A stretch of 64,000 nucleotides of DNA from Planctomycetota bacterium. GTDB taxonomy: Bacteria > Planctomycetota > Planctomycetia > Gemmatales > Gemmataceae. Below the pieces are notes generated by a model, which saw nothing but the letters and a program-made list of their open reading frames with translations, did no database searches and had not been told where the DNA came from. The DNA lies in contig VGYC01000009.1 of the NCBI GenBank assembly GCA_016873095.1, positions 1 through 64,000 of the forward strand. The letters are read 5' to 3'. The position numbers and the translations under genes were made by a program. Of this stretch, positions 7,156 to 61,679 are shown in pieces (the stretch's first letter is position 1; each line of letters opens with the position of its first letter).

Positions 7156-8586
7156 TCACGCCAGAATCCCGCGCACCACGTTGCCGTGCACATCCGTCAG
7201 CCGGAAGTCGCGGCCGTGGAAGCGATGCGTGAGGCGGGTGTGATCAAGGCCGAGGAGGTGGAGGATGGTCGCTTGCAGGTCATGGACGTGGACCTGGTTC
7301 TCGACGACGTTGAAGCCGATCTCGTCGGTTTGCCCGTGGATGTGGCCACGCTTCACGCCGCCGCCGGCCAGCCACATGGTGTAGGCGTCGATGTGATGGT
7401 CGCGGCCGATGGACTCGCGCGGCTCGCCCATCGGCGTGCGCCCGAACTCGCCGCCCCAGATCACCAGCGTGTCGTCCAGCATGCCGCGTCTCTTGAGATC
7501 CTTGACGAGCGCAGCACACGGGCGATCAACCTCGCGGCAGATGCCGTCGATGGATGTGGCCAGATTCAACCGGCCGCCGTGGTGGTCCCAGTCGGTATGG
7601 ATGAGTTGCACATAACGGACGCCGCGCTCGACCAGCCGGCGAGCTAGAAGACAGTTGGAGGCAAACGACGGCTGCCCCGGCTCGGCGCCGTACAGCCGCA
7701 GCGTCTCCTGCGTCTCGCCGCGCATATCCATGACTTCCGGGGCGGCGGTCTGCATGCGGAAGGCGGTCTCGTAAGCGGCGATGCGCGTCTCGATCTCCGG
7801 ATCGCCGACGCTGCCCAGCCGCAGCCGGTTCATGTCGCGGACGACGTCGATGAACTCGCCCTGCTGGCGTGGCTGGATGCCGGCCGGCGTGGCCAGGTCG
7901 AGGATCGGCTGCGGGCCGCGCAGGAACGGCACGCCCTGATAGATGCTGGGCAGGAAGCCGCTGGACCAGATGGCCGCCCCGCCGCGCGGCCCGCGCGGGC
8001 CCGATTGCAGCACGACAAACGCCGGCAAGCTCGCCGACTCGCTGCCGATGCCGTACACGATCCACGAGCCCATGCTGGGCCGGCCGAACTGCGGCGAGCC
8101 CGTGTTCAGGAACACCTTCGCCGGCCCGTGGTTGAAGACGTCCGTCTTCATCCCCTTCAAGAGACAGATGTCGTCAACGATGTCGCGGTGATGCGGCAGT
8201 AATTCGCTGATGTCGGCGCCGACGCGGCCGGCCCGTGCGAACCGTCGCCGGCTACCCAGCAGCTTGGCGTCGGTGCGGATGAAGGCGAAGCGGCGGCCCT
8301 CCGTGAACGAGGGGGGCACCGTCTGGCCGTCGAGCCGTTTCAGCACCGGCTTGTTGTCAAAGAGCTCCAGATGGCTGGGGCCGCCGGCCATGAACAGGAA
8401 GATGACGGATTTCGCCTTCGCGGGGAAATGGCCGGCGCGCGGGCGGAAAGCGATGGCCGGGTTCGCCGTCGCCTCGCGCTCGAAGAGCGATGCCAGCGCC
8501 ATGCCGCCCACGCCGACCGTGCAGTCGCGGAGGAAGTAACGGCGCGAAAGTGCGGCGAGATTGGCGGCGGAAGGATCGTGATTCAT
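7156..8586 (-). CDS. DUF1501 family exported protein (sulfatase-fold)
   Basis: A 476-residue DUF1501 protein. The N-terminus SRRYFLRDCTVGVGGMALASL is a Tat-like signal (SRRxFL followed by a hydrophobic stretch), so it is probably exported folded. Family landmarks follow in order: KSVIFLFMAGGPSHLELFD (metal-site-like loop of the alkaline-phosphatase/sulfatase fold), then LLPHHRDIVDDICLLKGM, and later LVIWGGEFGRTP and GRDHHIDAYTMWLAGGGVK. It ends with the usual HATILHLLGLDHTRL-type segment. An SD-like GGAG precedes the ATG. DUF1501 genes usually follow a DUF1549/DUF1553 cytochrome gene; here no such partner is adjacent, so it is an orphan copy. Its role is unproven; members are abundant in planctomycetes and often placed near polymer-degrading enzymes. 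Confidence 0.9.
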   Translation of the reverse strand: MNHDPSAANLAALSRRYFLRDCTVGVGGMALASLFEREATANPAIAFRPRAGHFPAKAKSVIFLFMAGGPSHLELFDNKPVLKRLDGQTVPPSFTEGRRFAFIRTDAKLLGSRRRFARAGRVGADISELLPHHRDIVDDICLLKGMKTDVFNHGPAKVFLNTGSPQFGRPSMGSWIVYGIGSESASLPAFVVLQSGPRGPRGGAAIWSSGFLPSIYQGVPFLRGPQPILDLATPAGIQPRQQGEFIDVVRDMNRLRLGSVGDPEIETRIAAYETAFRMQTAAPEVMDMRGETQETLRLYGAEPGQPSFASNCLLARRLVERGVRYVQLIHTDWDHHGGRLNLATSIDGICREVDRPCAALVKDLKRRGMLDDTLVIWGGEFGRTPMGEPRESIGRDHHIDAYTMWLAGGGVKRGHIHGQTDEIGFNVVENQVHVHDLQATILHLLGLDHTRLTHRFHGRDFRLTDVHGNVVRGILA

Positions 8587-8685
8587 GATCGTCTCCGGGC
8601 AGGATCAACGTCGTGTATTGTAGCCGACGCGAGACAAGACGAGAAGGCTGTCCAGTCAATCGATATCGCCTGGATTCGCGGCGAT

Positions 8686-8694
8686 TGCTATACT
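8686..8694 (+). promoter_or_regulatory. Extended -10 promoter candidate for the lipoprotein cluster
   Basis: TGC-TATACT lies 33 bp before the ATG of the first lipoprotein gene: a 5/6 match to TATAAT with the TG extension. No good -35 is seen at 17 bp spacing, as is common for extended -10 sites. It sits in the divergent interval with the DUF1501 gene. Confidence 0.4.
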
Positions 8695-8727
8695 CAAATT
8701 GTGAGTCAACGATACAAGGAGACGAGC

Positions 8728-9210
8728 ATGGGCAGGACAATGTGGCTGGGATGCGCGGCAGGTATGTGCCTGGGGCTGATCGGCTGTAGCTCGGACACGC
8801 GTGAGACGCTCGTTTCCGTGGCGGTCAAGCAGATGAACGACGCTGCCAGCAACATGGCGAGCATCCGGCAATCAGTCGAGAAGTGGGAAAAGGAGCCCAA
8901 GGAGAAGGCCAAGTACTTGAAGCTTGCCGGTGACGCCGCCGAGCGGCTCAAGAAGAACGGCCAGGCCTTCCAGGAGATCAAGCAGCAGGCCGACAAGCTG
9001 GATGTACTCACGCAGCAGGAAAAGGAAGAACAGGCCAAGACCTTTGAGAAGAGTCTGCGCGGCGCCCTGACCACCGTCACCAAGGAAATGGCCGCCTTGA
9101 ACCAGACCATGGCCCGCGCCGAGAAAGTGGACAAGACCGGCATCAGCGATCTGCGGGAAAAGCTGCGCCAGGCTCAGAGCGAATTCGAGGTATTGAGCCG
9201 GCAGCGCTGA
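8728..9210 (+). CDS. Helical lipoprotein of unknown function
   Basis: A 160-residue protein starting at ATG 8728 behind AAGGAG. The N-terminus (MGRTMWLGCAAGMCLGLIGC) is a lipoprotein signal with lipobox L-I-G-C, so the mature form should be lipid-anchored. The rest is almost entirely charged helix (EKWEKEPKEKAKYLK, ERLKKNGQAFQEIKQQADKL, DLREKLRQAQSEFEVL), consistent with a coiled coil. It is the first of four similar secreted helical proteins transcribed rightwards. No enzymatic motif is present; a periplasmic structural or adaptor role is possible but unproven. Confidence 0.75.
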   Translation: MGRTMWLGCAAGMCLGLIGCSSDTRETLVSVAVKQMNDAASNMASIRQSVEKWEKEPKEKAKYLKLAGDAAERLKKNGQAFQEIKQQADKLDVLTQQEKEEQAKTFEKSLRGALTTVTKEMAALNQTMARAEKVDKTGISDLREKLRQAQSEFEVLSRQR

Positions 9211-55188: not shown

Positions 55189-56178
55189 TCACGCGGATTT
55201 GCGGTCGCTGCGGCCACGCTGAATGTCGGGGCCGATGCGGCCGATGATGGCCGGCCGTTCGTCAACCTCGTGCGCCGCGGGGTGTGCCGTGCCGTTCTCA
55301 ATCGCGGCGAGACGATGCAGCAGGCCCTTGTTGTTGGCGATCTGGATGGCCAGGCCGGGGCGGGCGTTGGCTTCCAGCAGCATCGGCCCGTGATCGGCAT
55401 CGACGACGATGTCCACGCCGACGTAGCCCAGTCCCACGGCCCGCGACACCTTGCACGACATGTCGAGCACCTGCTCCCAGTAGGGAACCTGCATGCCGAC
55501 CACCGGCACGCCGGTGTCGGGATGTTCGCTGACGGAGCGATTGCGGAGCACGGCATGGTTGGTCATGCCGGTGTCGAGATCGACGCCGGTGCCGATGCCT
55601 CCCTGGTGGAGATTGGCCCGGCCATTGGATGCCTTGGTCGGCAGCCGCAGCATCGCCATCGCCGGCTCGTTGCGGTACAGCACCACGCGGATGTCGGGAA
55701 TGCCCTTGTAGCTGACCGGCTGGAAGGCAGGATGCATGCGGACGCGCTGCTGCAGGATGGCCTCGTCGGGTCGGCCGCCCAGCGAATACATACCGGAGAG
55801 AATGTCGGAAAGATGTTGCCGGAGCTGGTCGGCCGAGAGCCGTTCGCCGTTGTGGCGGATGAAGGCGTCGCCGTCGCGGCCGACGATGACGAGCACGCCG
55901 CGTCCCGCAGAGCCGCGATTCGGCTTGACGACGAAATCATCCACGCCGTCGAGCATCTCCGGCAGCTTCCGCAACATCCACGGATAGGCGATGACCCGAT
56001 ACACGTCCGGCGTCGGCACGCGCATCTTCAGGCACAGGTCGCGCATCTTCAGCTTGTCATCCACGACGGGAAACAGCGCCCGCGGATTGTGATCGAGAAT
56101 GAACGCCGCATTGCGAGCGTTCATCCCCAGGATGCCAAGCTCCTTCAGGCGGCGCGAGGCACGGAATAGCCAGAACAT
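55189..56178 (-). CDS. ATP-grasp alpha-L-glutamate ligase-like protein (RimK-related)
   Basis: A 329-residue soluble ATP-grasp enzyme. N-terminal FWLFRASRRLKELGILGMNA and HNPRALFPVVDDKLKMRDLC lead into the ATP-binding core (FVVKPNRGSAGRGVLVIVGR). Later come LQQRVRMHPAFQPVSYKGIP, IRVVLYRNEPAMAMLRLPTK and the metal-binding end MLLEANARPGLAIQIAN. These match the alpha-L-glutamate ligase homologues that occur with 7TM inactive transglutaminases. The reaction should be ATP-driven amide-bond formation between an amine and a carboxylate (often glutamate). It is the last gene of a three-gene unit with 57871-56276 and 59965-57926. The acceptor is unknown. Confidence 0.9.
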   Translation of the reverse strand: MFWLFRASRRLKELGILGMNARNAAFILDHNPRALFPVVDDKLKMRDLCLKMRVPTPDVYRVIAYPWMLRKLPEMLDGVDDFVVKPNRGSAGRGVLVIVGRDGDAFIRHNGERLSADQLRQHLSDILSGMYSLGGRPDEAILQQRVRMHPAFQPVSYKGIPDIRVVLYRNEPAMAMLRLPTKASNGRANLHQGGIGTGVDLDTGMTNHAVLRNRSVSEHPDTGVPVVGMQVPYWEQVLDMSCKVSRAVGLGYVGVDIVVDADHGPMLLEANARPGLAIQIANNKGLLHRLAAIENGTAHPAAHEVDERPAIIGRIGPDIQRGRSDRKSA

Positions 56179-56193
56179 GAGAACTCCAGTGGG

Positions 56194-56276
56194 CAGTTTT
56201 CAGTTTTCAGTTTTCAGTGCAGAATGTCTGTTTCTGAACACTGAACACTGAAAACTGAACACTGAAAACTGAACAC
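56194..56276. repeat. Heptanucleotide inverted-repeat element in the ligase operon
   Basis: Three CAGTTTT units plus CAG (56194-56217) face six CTGAACA/CTGAAAA units (56234-56275), so the two arms can pair. It begins right at the stop of the transglutaminase gene and ends 16 bp before the ligase start. It is AT-rich compared with the GC-rich surroundings. Confidence 0.85.
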
Positions 56277-57871
56277 TACGTGCGCACGAGATCGCGGAAA
56301 CGATACAGCTCCGACAAGCGGTATCCCGTGTAACGGCCGATGAGGAGCTGGCAGGCCATGATGATGCCGAGCGTCTCCGGGAAGTTGACCATGTGATTGA
56401 GAACAAACGGAGCGCTCGCTGTCAGGGCAATGGTGGCGGCGATGATCAGCGTGCCGAGCAGCGTCTTGAATGATCTGACCGTGCCGTCCTCGGCCTCCAG
56501 CGTCCAGAAGCGTTCGATCATGCCCGTCAGAATGATGATGGGGAATAGCGAGATGTAGCGCGTCACGGCCAGGTCCTGATAGTTGGCGGCCACGATCGAG
56601 CCGATCAATACCAGCACGACCAGGCTCAGCATGAACGCCGTCCGCGGCACCTGCAACAGGTGATAGCGATCCAGCACGCGACGCATGCCCCAGCCGATCA
56701 GCACGATCGATACGAAGACCAGGATGCCGGGCATGCTCTCCAGGTGGCGAAACGCCAGGCCGATCAAGGCCGGGGCGAAGGTGCCGAAGGAGTGCAGCCC
56801 GATCACATTGCGGTAGAAGCAGATGATGAGAGCGGCGATGGGTAGAAGCAAGAGAAACTCGACAAGCCGCCATTCCGCCGGCGGCAGCGAGTACAGCGAG
56901 ATCTTGCGGAAAAACTGCTCCCAGGTGGTGGCATCCTCGGTCTGCGCGGCCTGGGCCAGCGCGGAGGAATGCTCGACGAGAAAGGCGTAGTCAAGGTTGC
57001 GGACATTGTGGCCGCGAACCAGCGACATGTCACCGTAGCCGAACACCAGGTACGTGGCCGGCACCTTGAGAAAATAATGATAGTACGGGCACATCGACAT
57101 CCAGTAGTCGCCGACCCAGGCTTCCACCCAGACGTGGGCAGTCTGCTCGTTGCGATTGCCGAGAGCGACGCCGGTGACGAGCCGGGCCGGAATGCCGCGA
57201 TTGCGACACAGGGCGACCAGCAGGCGGCTCTTGGCGAGAGCGTCGCCGCGACCTGCCTCGAGGCACATGGCCGCCGTCCGGTTGGCCTGCCCAGCGCTTG
57301 GCTCCTTGTCGATCGCCTTGGCGACATGCTCGTAGAGTTTGCGGACCTGATCGAGCCGCGGCGACATGCCGGCCGTCATGTCGAGGGCCACGCGCGTGAC
57401 CTCCGGATGGCTCGGGTCGATGCCGGGTGTCTTGCTGAGATGCTCGCCGGGTCGCGGCGGTGCATACAGCGCCTTTTGCATCTGCGTCATCGAGGTGCTG
57501 GGCCGATGCACATGGACGTTGCAGAAGAACTGATAGCGTGCCTGAAAGGCGCCCTTGGGCGCCGCCACGCGCTGCGTCCAGTGCAGCGAACGGCGGCCTG
57601 GCTTCTGCCCCTCGACGATCCTGGCATACAGCTCGTCGCTGGAGTGGTCCTCGCCGAAGATGTGCTGGCGGCCCATGTCCAGCGGACAGGCAGTGATCAG
57701 GCGGGCGTCGCCGGTGCTCTTGCCGTGCGTAACCAGCGTGACCTTGAAGTGCCCCGAGCCGGCCGGCACGCGCGTCTCCTGGCCCATCACCTGTACACGC
57801 ACAACGGCGATGCTCGCCGATATTAGCATCAACGACAGGGCCGTGACCACGCAAAGAGTCGTCCGTGACAT
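56276..57871 (-). CDS. Inactive transglutaminase fused to seven transmembrane helices
   Basis: A 531-residue protein: N-terminal anchor (TLCVVTALSLMLISASIAVV), an exported domain (about 40-180), then a transglutaminase-like domain (about 180-290) with ALAKSRLLVALCRNRGIPAR and TAHVWVEAWVGDYWMSMCP. The position that normally holds the catalytic Cys before the helix is not Cys (GRGDALAKS), so it is probably inactive. The C-terminal half has seven hydrophobic helices (VEFLLLLPIAALIICFYRNV onwards). This matches the family that accompanies ATP-grasp glutamate ligases. It likely binds peptide or amide substrates at the membrane. 54 bp separate it from the upstream peptidase gene. Confidence 0.88.
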   Translation of the reverse strand: MSRTTLCVVTALSLMLISASIAVVRVQVMGQETRVPAGSGHFKVTLVTHGKSTGDARLITACPLDMGRQHIFGEDHSSDELYARIVEGQKPGRRSLHWTQRVAAPKGAFQARYQFFCNVHVHRPSTSMTQMQKALYAPPRPGEHLSKTPGIDPSHPEVTRVALDMTAGMSPRLDQVRKLYEHVAKAIDKEPSAGQANRTAAMCLEAGRGDALAKSRLLVALCRNRGIPARLVTGVALGNRNEQTAHVWVEAWVGDYWMSMCPYYHYFLKVPATYLVFGYGDMSLVRGHNVRNLDYAFLVEHSSALAQAAQTEDATTWEQFFRKISLYSLPPAEWRLVEFLLLLPIAALIICFYRNVIGLHSFGTFAPALIGLAFRHLESMPGILVFVSIVLIGWGMRRVLDRYHLLQVPRTAFMLSLVVLVLIGSIVAANYQDLAVTRYISLFPIIILTGMIERFWTLEAEDGTVRSFKTLLGTLIIAATIALTASAPFVLNHMVNFPETLGIIMACQLLIGRYTGYRLSELYRFRDLVRT

Positions 57872-57925
57872 GAGCTTCCATCCTCGATTTGGCAGGACGG
57901 CTTTCCTGAGCCGTCTTGCGTGTGT

Positions 57926-59965
57926 CTAGTTCCAGGAGACGTGAAAACGCAGCTCGTCGCGGTGATCGGCCCTGGGAGCCGCCAGAATGTAGACACAGGA
58001 GCGCCGTGCATCGTAGCAAGAAACCCAGCGCTTGCCGGCCAGCCGGCTGGTGAAGCGCGGCGTCCTGCCCGGCCGGGCCTTGAGCGGCACCTCGGCAAAC
58101 ACGAGCGGCACAAGACTGCGGCCGTCCTCGTCGCCCACGCGCAGCAGACCACCAAGCCTGGCGTTGGCCCACATCTGTGCCTCGTATCGGCCCGTCGTGG
58201 ACTTGGCGTGCCGGGCGGGCGGCAGGGCGATGCGGATGGCATTGCCGTGCACTTCGGCGTGGATGCGCGGCAGGCTCGCGCTCGGCGCCGCCGGGTGCGG
58301 CAGGCTTTGCGTTGGATCGCCCCAGAGCGTGAACGCCCAGGCGGAACGCGTGCTGGCGCCGCGCAGCTTGGACTTTTCCGCCAGCCGCTTGTCCTTGAGA
58401 CGCGAGAAGGCCATCATGAAATTCTTGGCCTGCCGCAGCGAACCGCCCAGCGATTGCCGATCGTAGAGCAGTGCGTCGAAGTACGCCAGCGCGAAGGCGC
58501 CCCCGGAGGCGGAGTACGTTCGCGTCGAGGAGCCGATCACGCCGATCGCTCCCTTGCGCAGGAACGGATGCGCCTTCTCCTCGGTCAGGGCCAGGCAGCT
58601 TTGCAGAAAGACGAGCGAGGGGCGCAGCGGCTCCGTCCACTGCGGGACTTCATACTCGCGGACCAGCGTGCTGTGATGCCCCTCCCAGAGGAAAATGGTC
58701 TGCTGCGACAGCAGCTTGCGCAGGCTGGCCTCGCTGGCCTTGGAGCCGAAAAGCGCCGTTGTCTGGTAGCCGGCGTTTTTCAGCTCCTGGGCGGTATTAC
58801 GCGAGAAGGTTTCGAGCAAGGGTAGGCCGCCGCCGGGATTGCTGACCAGGATGGCCTTGTTCGCCGACGCCGGATTGACATCCCACAGCCGGGGGCGAGC
58901 CAGCATCAGCGCCGTCACGTTTAGATCGTCGTGAAAGACCCGGCCGACCGAGAAGGAGAACGGCTCGTCGTTGGCCGGCGTCAATGGTTCCATCTCGATG
59001 AAAGCGTCCTTGCCGCCGGGCAATGGATTCGGCCGGCGCTGCATCGGAATTGCCCGCAGATCGGCGGCCAGGACCACGCTGTCCACCTGTTTCAATCCGG
59101 GCCGTTCGACGGCTTCCTCGACGACGGTCTCGACGTTGGACCCGTCCTCGCTGGTGCAGAGAAGCTGGGCCTGCCGCTGCCAGGCGATCCAGGGCGCCAG
59201 GACCGACATGCCGTGGCGCTGCCTGTCAGCGGGATTGGCCAGCACCAGGGTGCGCGCCGGCGTCTTGCGCGCCTTGAGACAAGCCGTCACAACGGAGGCC
59301 TCATCGGGCAGTCGACGCACGCGGAGATCGACCACGTGTCGGCAAGGCTCGGCGGCGTCGCCCACGGCCACGATCTCCTTGAGCGCCCATTGCTTGCGGC
59401 AGCGATCCAGCCTGTCGCGATCCTCGGCGCGATCGTGCACGACGAGCAGCGGAGCATGCAGCACGCCCGCAAGACAGGCCGACTGCAGGAGAAGGCTACG
59501 CGGCGTCGCCGGCGCGACGACCAGCCTGGTCGCGCGCGGAAAGAGGGACTTCCACAGCTCGTCGCCCGGCTGGCCGGTCCAGGGCTGCGCTGCAACCGCT
59601 TCGGCCTGGTAGCTCTTCTCGAGCGTGCTTTCCTTCTCGGTGAACGCACCGACCGGGACGATGCAGCGCGGTCCGAACTCGCGCAAGAACGCCTGTGTGT
59701 ATTGCCGCGAGCGCGGCGAGTCGAGCAGGAACACGCCCGGATGCCTGCTGCCGGCGAGCGCGGCGCCGAAGGAGATGATGCCCTCATCATCGAGGTTGCC
59801 ACCCAGGAATACGATGCGCTCGGGTCCGTCCCAAAGCCAGCCGGAGCGCGAGCCGTGTCCCTCAACGAGGGCCAGCCCAGGCGCCACAAGCGCGGCGATG
59901 CACGGGACCAGCAAGAATGGTCGGCGCGGACGATGAGCCACGATTTTGAACCTCTTCTCGAACAT
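57926..59965 (-). CDS. Gingipain-like (C25-type, clan CD) cysteine peptidase homologue
   Basis: ATG 59963-59965 (MFEKRFKIVAHRPRRPFLLV) starts at a signal peptide, ending near APGLALVEG; the open frame to 60169 lacks an SD-preceded start. The N-terminal 350 residues are alpha/beta (RIVFLGGNLDDEGIISFGAA; RTLVLANPADRQRHG). The peptidase-like domain (about 390-600) has FLWEGHHSTLV with the catalytic-type His (about 428), LVFLQSCLAL with Cys (about 456), and the C25-family GAIGVIGSSTRTYSASGGAF and AFTLWGDPTQSL. It is predicted to act outside the cytoplasm. It is the first gene of the unit with the 7TM transglutaminase and ATP-grasp ligase, where a retropepsin-type peptidase is the more familiar companion. 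Confidence 0.82.
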   Translation of the reverse strand: MFEKRFKIVAHRPRRPFLLVPCIAALVAPGLALVEGHGSRSGWLWDGPERIVFLGGNLDDEGIISFGAALAGSRHPGVFLLDSPRSRQYTQAFLREFGPRCIVPVGAFTEKESTLEKSYQAEAVAAQPWTGQPGDELWKSLFPRATRLVVAPATPRSLLLQSACLAGVLHAPLLVVHDRAEDRDRLDRCRKQWALKEIVAVGDAAEPCRHVVDLRVRRLPDEASVVTACLKARKTPARTLVLANPADRQRHGMSVLAPWIAWQRQAQLLCTSEDGSNVETVVEEAVERPGLKQVDSVVLAADLRAIPMQRRPNPLPGGKDAFIEMEPLTPANDEPFSFSVGRVFHDDLNVTALMLARPRLWDVNPASANKAILVSNPGGGLPLLETFSRNTAQELKNAGYQTTALFGSKASEASLRKLLSQQTIFLWEGHHSTLVREYEVPQWTEPLRPSLVFLQSCLALTEEKAHPFLRKGAIGVIGSSTRTYSASGGAFALAYFDALLYDRQSLGGSLRQAKNFMMAFSRLKDKRLAEKSKLRGASTRSAWAFTLWGDPTQSLPHPAAPSASLPRIHAEVHGNAIRIALPPARHAKSTTGRYEAQMWANARLGGLLRVGDEDGRSLVPLVFAEVPLKARPGRTPRFTSRLAGKRWVSCYDARRSCVYILAAPRADHRDELRFHVSWN

Positions 59966-60167: not shown

Positions 60168-61679
60168 ATGACTGCGCCGTCTGCCTACGAGGAGTTGCTG
60201 CGCCGCTGCCGCGAAGAATCGCTCCTGTCCTCGATTGCCGAGCTGCTGGAGTGGGACGAACTGACGCACATGCCGGAAGAGGGGGCGGAACATCGCGGTC
60301 GGCAGCAAGCGCTGCTGGCGGGCCTGCATCACCAGCGGGCCACCGATCCACGAGTGGGCGACCTGCTCGACGTGGTCGAAAGCTCGGAGTTGACGCGCGA
60401 CGCCGCTTCGCTTCCGGCGGCGAACATTCGCCTCATTCGCCGGGCGTACAGCCGTGCCCGCCGGCTGCCGCAAGCCCTGGTCGAGGAACAGGCCCGGGTC
60501 GTTTCGCTGGCGCAGCAGGAATGGGCCGTCGCCCGCGCCGCCGCTGACTTCCGCATCTTTCTGCCCTGGCTGGAAAAGGTCGTGCACCTCAAGCAGGCGG
60601 AGGCGCAGGCCCAGGGCTACGACTCCGAGCCGTACGATGCCTTGCTCGAGGATTACGAGCCGGGCGCTCGCGCGGCGCAGCTTGCCGGCATGTTCGCCAG
60701 CCTGCGCGACGAGCTGTTGCCGCTGATCGACACGATCGCCGGCGCGCGACGCTGGCCGCGAACGGACATCCTGAAGCGGAACTTTCCCATCGAGCAGCAA
60801 CGGTTGTTCGGCGAGGAGACGGCGGCGGCCCTGGGTTTCGATTTCAACGCCGGCCGGCTGGACACGACGGTGCATCCGTTTTTCAGCGCCGTCGGTCCCG
60901 GCGATTGCCGCATCGTGACGCGTTTCAGCGACAACGATTTTTGCGATGGTTTCTTCGGCATTCTGCACGAGCTGGGTCATGCCTTTTACGAGATCGGCCT
61001 GGACCCGGAACAGCACGGCACGCCCGCCGGCGAAGCCGCTGCGGTAGGCCTGCACGAGTCACAGGCCCGGCTGTGGGAGAACGCCGTCGGCCGCAGCCGC
61101 GCTTTCTGGCGACACTTCCTGCCGCGCGCCCAGCAGACCTTTCAGGCAAGCCTCGCGGATGTGTCTCTCGAAGATTTTCATTTCGCCATCAACGTGTGCG
61201 TGCCATCGCTGAACCGCGTGCGCGCCGACGAGGTAACGTACAATCTGCACATCCTTGTGCGGTTTGAACTGGAGCGGGCGCTCATGAGCGGCGATCTCAA
61301 GCCGGCCGACGTACCCGCCGCCTGGAACGAAGGCTATCGCCGTCATCTCGGCATCGTGCCCGCCGACGATGCCGAAGGCTGCTTGCAGGACGGCCACTGG
61401 GGGGCCGGCCTGATTGGCTACTTCCCCACCTACACGCTCGGCAACCTCATGGCCGCCCAGCTCTTTGCCCGCGCCGCCGGCGAACTCGGCGAACTCGAAG
61501 AAATGTTCGCACGCGGCGACTTCGCGCCGCTGCTCAGCTGGCTGCGCGAACGCATCCACCGTCATGGCCACGTGCAACCGGCCAATGACTTGCTCGAAGC
61601 TGCGACGGGGTCGCCGCTGGATCACGGGTTCCTGATGCGTTATCTGCGCGGCAAGTTCGGCGAACTTTACGACGTGTGA
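60168..61679 (+). CDS. M32 family metallocarboxypeptidase
   Basis: A 503-residue zinc carboxypeptidase of the Taq carboxypeptidase family, cleaving C-terminal residues with broad specificity. The zinc motif HELGHAFYEIGL is at about residues 267-278, followed by VGLHESQARLWENAVGRSRA, a family signature, and later NLMAAQLFARAAG. Length fits the family (about 500). It is cytoplasmic with no signal. It is divergent from the gingipain-like gene; the starts are about 200 bp apart. It could contribute to peptide turnover but may be unrelated to the neighbouring unit. Confidence 0.95.
   Translation: MTAPSAYEELLRRCREESLLSSIAELLEWDELTHMPEEGAEHRGRQQALLAGLHHQRATDPRVGDLLDVVESSELTRDAASLPAANIRLIRRAYSRARRLPQALVEEQARVVSLAQQEWAVARAAADFRIFLPWLEKVVHLKQAEAQAQGYDSEPYDALLEDYEPGARAAQLAGMFASLRDELLPLIDTIAGARRWPRTDILKRNFPIEQQRLFGEETAAALGFDFNAGRLDTTVHPFFSAVGPGDCRIVTRFSDNDFCDGFFGILHELGHAFYEIGLDPEQHGTPAGEAAAVGLHESQARLWENAVGRSRAFWRHFLPRAQQTFQASLADVSLEDFHFAINVCVPSLNRVRADEVTYNLHILVRFELERALMSGDLKPADVPAAWNEGYRRHLGIVPADDAEGCLQDGHWGAGLIGYFPTYTLGNLMAAQLFARAAGELGELEEMFARGDFAPLLSWLRERIHRHGHVQPANDLLEAATGSPLDHGFLMRYLRGKFGELYDV

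Follow-up and report, generated by a model that had tools for sequence, protein, structure and literature searches.

The three consecutive genes on the minus strand between positions 55189 and 59965 of the 64,000-nucleotide stretch of planctomycete DNA analysed here (the window) probably represent a form of the rlo operon where the exported retropepsin RloA has given way to an unrelated, likewise exported cysteine peptidase from clan CD, that is, a non-orthologous replacement of the eraser. The parent system is already known, named and genetically studied, and what appears to be undescribed is the peptidase swap only. No description of a clan-CD peptidase with rloBC was found in the accessible literature, in line with a preliminary description of this DNA, made from the letters alone, which had called the pairing with a C25-like peptidase undescribed; subscription work, including the 2009 amidoligase survey, lies outside this scope, and a prior mention there is possible. 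The three genes named in that description were recovered as open reading frames, in the operon order peptidase, transglutaminase-7TM protein and ATP-grasp protein. The features of the locus are as follows.

57926..59965, minus strand: clan-CD (C25-like) cysteine peptidase of 679 aa in the rloA slot (PF01364, fold, invariant His/Cys)
59855..59923, minus strand: peptidase residues 15-37, counted from the start at 59965; hydrophobic export signal (hydropathy)
56276..57871, minus strand: RloB-like pseudo-transglutaminase/7TM protein of 531 aa (PF14402, PF01841, NF052267, AF2/Foldseek)
56190..56275, minus strand: heptad-repeat hairpin between rloB and rloC (MFE -48.3, z -7.0)
55189..56178, minus strand: RloC-like cytoplasmic ATP-grasp amide ligase of 329 aa (TIGR02291, PF14397, intact residues)

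The rloA gene of Pseudomonas aeruginosa shares an operon with rloB and rloC, and its product, a secreted aspartic peptidase of the retropepsin-like type, cleaves polyglutamate in vitro (PMC12239564). When the three RloA peptidases of this species were lost, the cells did not grow in hypoosmotic medium, and biofilm, antibiotic tolerance and shape were altered; the hypoosmotic defect was fully rescued by deletion of rloB or rloC (PMC12239564), which indicates that the peptidase counters the activity of RloB and RloC. In the window, homologues of rloB and rloC likewise share an operon with the gene for an exported peptidase, which comes first, whereas this peptidase is a cysteine enzyme of about 680 aa with CWB2-like modules and RloA is a small aspartic enzyme. 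The statement that the ligase and the 7TM protein usually go with a retropepsin-like peptidase thus finds its counterpart in rloABC of P. aeruginosa. Proteobacteria accounted for 96% of the RloB hits in that work (PMC12239564); the loci described below extend rlo beyond that phylum, to Planctomycetota and Lentisphaerae.

The peptidase in the rloA slot has a clan-CD fold

The peptidase scored 28.6 bits against the Pfam model PF01364 (Peptidase_C25), for which the curated cut-off is 23; the match spanned model positions 294-371 of 374 only, and the peptidase gene was the one match to this model in the whole genome of the window. All 24 members of the peptidase family matched PF01364 at E <= 0.1. 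No model for the peptidase was present in NCBIfam, and a phmmer search of the PDB with the single sequence returned only noise, so that a family profile was required. The His and Cys that had been noticed in the motifs EGHHS and LQSC correspond to His430 and Cys457 (numbered from the 59965 start), and both were invariant in 24/24 homologues with identities down to 20%. In the AlphaFold2 model (mean pLDDT 88, pTM 0.89), these residues were located at strand ends, and a Foldseek search of the PDB with the model gave separase (5.7e-07) and gingipain K (8.0e-07) as the best matches, followed by more separases and the anti-sigma factor DdvA.

As modelled, the peptidase is therefore a clan-CD fold with both catalytic residues, and gingipain is not clearly nearer to it than separase. 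It shares with C25 (gingipains) and C50 (separase) the catalytic fold and the His and Cys at adjacent strand ends, together with the GDP motif of the C25 model, and differs from C25 in that the Pfam match covers the last fifth of the model only and in its weak similarity to the canonical C25 proteins of the phylum. The designation 'C25-type' holds in so far as PF01364 was matched above its cut-off and gingipain K by fold; because separase is structurally as close, 'C25' is a loose label for what is a divergent clan-CD family.

An earlier in-frame ATG occurs at 60169, while the ATG at 59965 places a signal-peptide-like segment at the very N-terminus according to hydropathy. A similar N-terminal hydrophobic segment was found in 36 of 39 homologous peptidase entries (duplicates counted). 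The N-terminal region gave a profile match to the CWB2 domains of Cwp6 (1.8e-08) and, more weakly, a Foldseek match to the CWB2 fold of Cwp8 (3.6e-03). This resemblance to the CWB2 proteins of Clostridioides difficile occurs in a planctomycete context, and only one of the 24 peptidase members matched Pfam CWB2 directly. The modules may anchor the enzyme.

The P1 preference varies within clan CD, basic residues being preferred by gingipains and separase and Asp by caspases; hence, polyglutamate specificity cannot be assumed for this peptidase. An Arg after the post-Cys strand, considered as a caspase-like determinant of an acidic S1 pocket, was dropped since it was not conserved in all members, and a transfer of specificity from the canonical C25 proteins of the phylum was rejected since the alignments were too weak.

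RloB-like and RloC-like partners

The middle protein matched PF14402 (7TM_transglut, 9.4e-53) and PF01841 (Transglut_core, 1e-18), as well as the NCBIfam RloB model NF052267 at 5.1e-46 and 157 bits, a score far under the strict cut-off of 900. It consists of an N-terminal TM helix, an extracytoplasmic pseudo-transglutaminase domain and a 7TM C-terminus, and its AlphaFold2 model was matched by Foldseek to the transglutaminase-fold structure 3isr (8.9e-13) and also to TgpA. The position of the transglutaminase Cys is occupied by Ala211 in the window; the alignment column contained S/R/A/P/T/V, with Cys in 2 of 21 family members. As the preliminary description had recognised from the lack of this Cys, RloB is predicted not to qualify as an active transglutaminase, the catalytic Cys being unconserved.

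The third protein was identified as an alpha-L-glutamate-ligase-like ATP-grasp protein, as it had been read from its sequence, by TIGR02291 ('alpha-L-glutamate ligase-like', 351 bits with a cut-off of 314) and PF14397 (ATPgrasp_ST, 1e-81). The profile searches that had been proposed for the three genes thus gave a match to Peptidase_C25 over the cut-off for the peptidase, and matches to PF14402 and to PF14397/TIGR02291 for its partners. The ATP-grasp residues K85, D256, E269 and N271 were intact and were invariant in 17 homologues, so that RloC is probably an active ligase.

Linkage of the peptidase with rloBC

Of 59 family-level relatives, 11 encode a homologue of the peptidase and 19 a member of the RloB family. 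RloC-family proteins were found in 23 at E <= 0.001, with 16 scoring over the cut-off. The peptidase gene stood beside rloB in 11/11 of the relatives that encode it, with the qualification that the G303 contig stops behind rloB and that rloC of G309 is on another contig; the co-occurrence of peptidase and RloB had a hypergeometric p of 2.7e-7, which ignores phylogeny. In two genomes of the same family with a full-length RloB (G300 and G325), no peptidase was detected. In an even sample of the phylum (294 genomes), a near-full-length peptidase was found in three genomes, namely the window's own, G071 and G191, each time beside rloBC, and RloB in 14 genomes (hypergeometric p 8.7e-5 for the co-occurrence, ignoring phylogeny); two more genomes gave partial peptidase matches only.

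A breadth scan of one genome per species (~85,000 species) yielded 24 peptidase loci, from Gemmataceae, other Planctomycetota, Phycisphaerae, Sedimentisphaerales, one Lentisphaerae genome, SAR324 and unclassified bacteria. At 21 of these loci, rloB directly adjoined the peptidase gene or, in the order rloB-rloC-peptidase, rloC. Most loci had the order peptidase-rloB-rloC, and the other order was found in G324, G071 and G191. Since the same trio occurs in many genomes, chance is excluded, and since no other neighbour was conserved among 15 Gemmataceae-type loci, general synteny does not account for this linkage. The survey of co-occurrence that had been suggested therefore revealed a three-gene set conserved in relatives in two orders. 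Together with the C25 match and the fold match, this upholds the proposal of a variant ligase/7TM-transglutaminase/retropepsin system whose retropepsin is replaced by a clan-CD peptidase.

Three of the 24 loci lacked an adjacent rloB: a paralogue in the G071 isolate was located beside an M28 peptidase, and the genes of SAR324 and of an unclassified bacterium beside a sigma-54 activator. G071 and G191 also have peptidase paralogues without an adjacent rloB. These loci imply that the peptidase can serve elsewhere, and such homologues (at L078, L080, L081 and L029) are what could be cited for the idea that the peptidase is a functionally unrelated neighbour of rloBC, placed there by chance or by general Gemmataceae synteny. 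We consider this idea very improbable: the two gene orders and the unconserved flanks already refute it for the most part, and the occurrence in several classes and a second phylum and the 11/11 co-occurrence also argue against it. In L078 (5560-9325), the gene directly after the clan-CD paralogue encodes a PA-domain M28 peptidase, and rloBC are missing.

Exclusion of a secreted retropepsin

No PF05618 retropepsin was found anywhere in the genome of the window. Since the slot holds the clan-CD peptidase, the locus was filed as a variant and not as a strict rloABC member. In five rlo loci from other families of the phylum, a retropepsin with an N-terminal hydrophobic segment was encoded directly before rloB, and none of them had a clan-CD gene there. 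Over 22 full-length rloB loci, 13 carried the clan-CD gene, five the secreted retropepsin and none both (Fisher p 0.005, ignoring phylogeny). In a tree of RloC, built with no outgroup, the C25-type loci formed two groups and the retropepsin-type loci were placed next to one of them.

The retropepsins that do occur in genomes with the clan-CD operon start near the catalytic domain. Those with a clear start have no signal peptide, and those on contigs of sufficient length adjoin a RimK-type ATP-grasp gene. The missing signal and the RimK-type neighbour identify them as rimB; in G071, rimB and rimK form a pair oriented divergently to the rloB-rloC-peptidase operon. RimK and RimB are a cytoplasmic pair working on polyglutamate tails in the ribosomal RimABK system (PMC11957791). 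Their scheme resembles that of the window, an ATP-grasp ligase with a peptidase that removes what the ligase adds, and the window's RloC is a relative of RimK. The Rim pair differs in that it is cytoplasmic, lacks RloB, has a retropepsin-like peptidase and forms a separate locus in several of the C25-type genomes.

In relatives without the clan-CD gene, no other peptidase was seen beside rloBC among the neighbours examined, save for an AstE/AspA-type enzyme encoded two genes upstream in G065, which might represent a third class of peptidase in this position. At this locus (L018, 5555-11557), the AstE/AspA-type metallohydrolase gene and a gene for a PP2C-cNMP protein precede rloBC, a RimK gene with TrkA_C is convergent, and the genome has no RimB. 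At L028 (G169:C17, about 8408-8834), a retropepsin and the end of a 7TM domain share one short open frame, which represents a deletion fusion or an assembly fault.

Proposed working of the operon

The operon would work as described below. In the cytoplasm, RloC would ligate amino acids, probably glutamate as in RimK relatives, in an ATP-driven manner, either to an acceptor or so as to form a short acidic peptide. Through its 7TM part and extracytoplasmic pseudo-transglutaminase domain, RloB would pass or present the product of RloC, or its signal, at the cell envelope. The clan-CD peptidase would be retained there through its CWB2-like modules and would trim or remove this product outside, thereby preventing a harmful build-up of the RloB/RloC product. 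The glutamate-rich nature of the product is suggested by the kinship of RloC with RimK and by the activity of RloA, and the removal or trimming at the envelope by the genetics in Pseudomonas; RloA and the clan-CD peptidase would accordingly act on a common substrate class, polyglutamate, and the direction of flow from RloC through RloB to the peptidase is likewise presumed.

ATP-grasp ligase plus peptidase is also a common layout in modified-peptide pathways. The operon could thus be imagined to make and export an amide-linked peptide natural product, with the clan-CD enzyme as the peptidase that matures a leader or propeptide, and RloB did give a weak match to the NCBIfam lasso B2 transglutaminase-like model. 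This match was below the cut-off, RloC is of the RimK/TIGR02291 type, and no conserved small precursor ORF (>= 90 codons) or other biosynthetic gene was linked to the operon, so that we give such a pathway hardly any credence.

The distribution of the transglutaminase domain bears on the role of the peptidase. An adjacent exported peptidase of either class was found in 18 of 22 full-length RloB loci and in none of nine loci whose RloB is 7TM-only and lacks this domain (Fisher p 3.5e-5, ignoring phylogeny). This difference suggests joint action of the peptidase and the dead transglutaminase domain. The 7TM-only loci are L056, L058-L061 and L024-L027, and several of those in the window's family are still paired with rloC.

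By the same numbers, it is the transglutaminase domain rather than RloC to which the peptidase is tied, and separase and similar clan-CD members cleave specific proteins. Both points would suit a peptidase that acts on a protein as partner or regulator of RloB, for example by cutting the transglutaminase domain itself or a periplasmic protein to switch signalling, and that is not an eraser of the RloC product. We regard this role as unlikely, since the enzyme in the same slot of P. aeruginosa cleaves polyglutamate and its loss is suppressed by loss of rloC as well as of rloB (PMC12239564).

Under the preferred reading, replacement of the eraser, it is conceivable, though rather less likely than not, that a clan-CD peptidase with acidic (polyglutamate) specificity convergently took over the job of RloA. 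The slot would then be set by function and not by ancestry, and the pseudo-transglutaminase domain of RloB would be the common element that requires a peptidase. In Pseudomonas, rlo governs survival in hypoosmotic medium as well as biofilm formation and cell shape, and an unrelated catalytic class in the same slot offers a second handle on the system: the substrate class cut by both enzymes is probably the true one.

A hairpin between rloB and rloC

The long hairpin at 56190-56275 is built of inverted heptad repeats (CTGAAAA / TGTTCAG) and had no match in Rfam. It is not a defining part of the rlo operon. The 17-mer at its core was present in 33 copies across the genome and in none in the reversed control, indicating that the hairpin is a dispersed repeat element.
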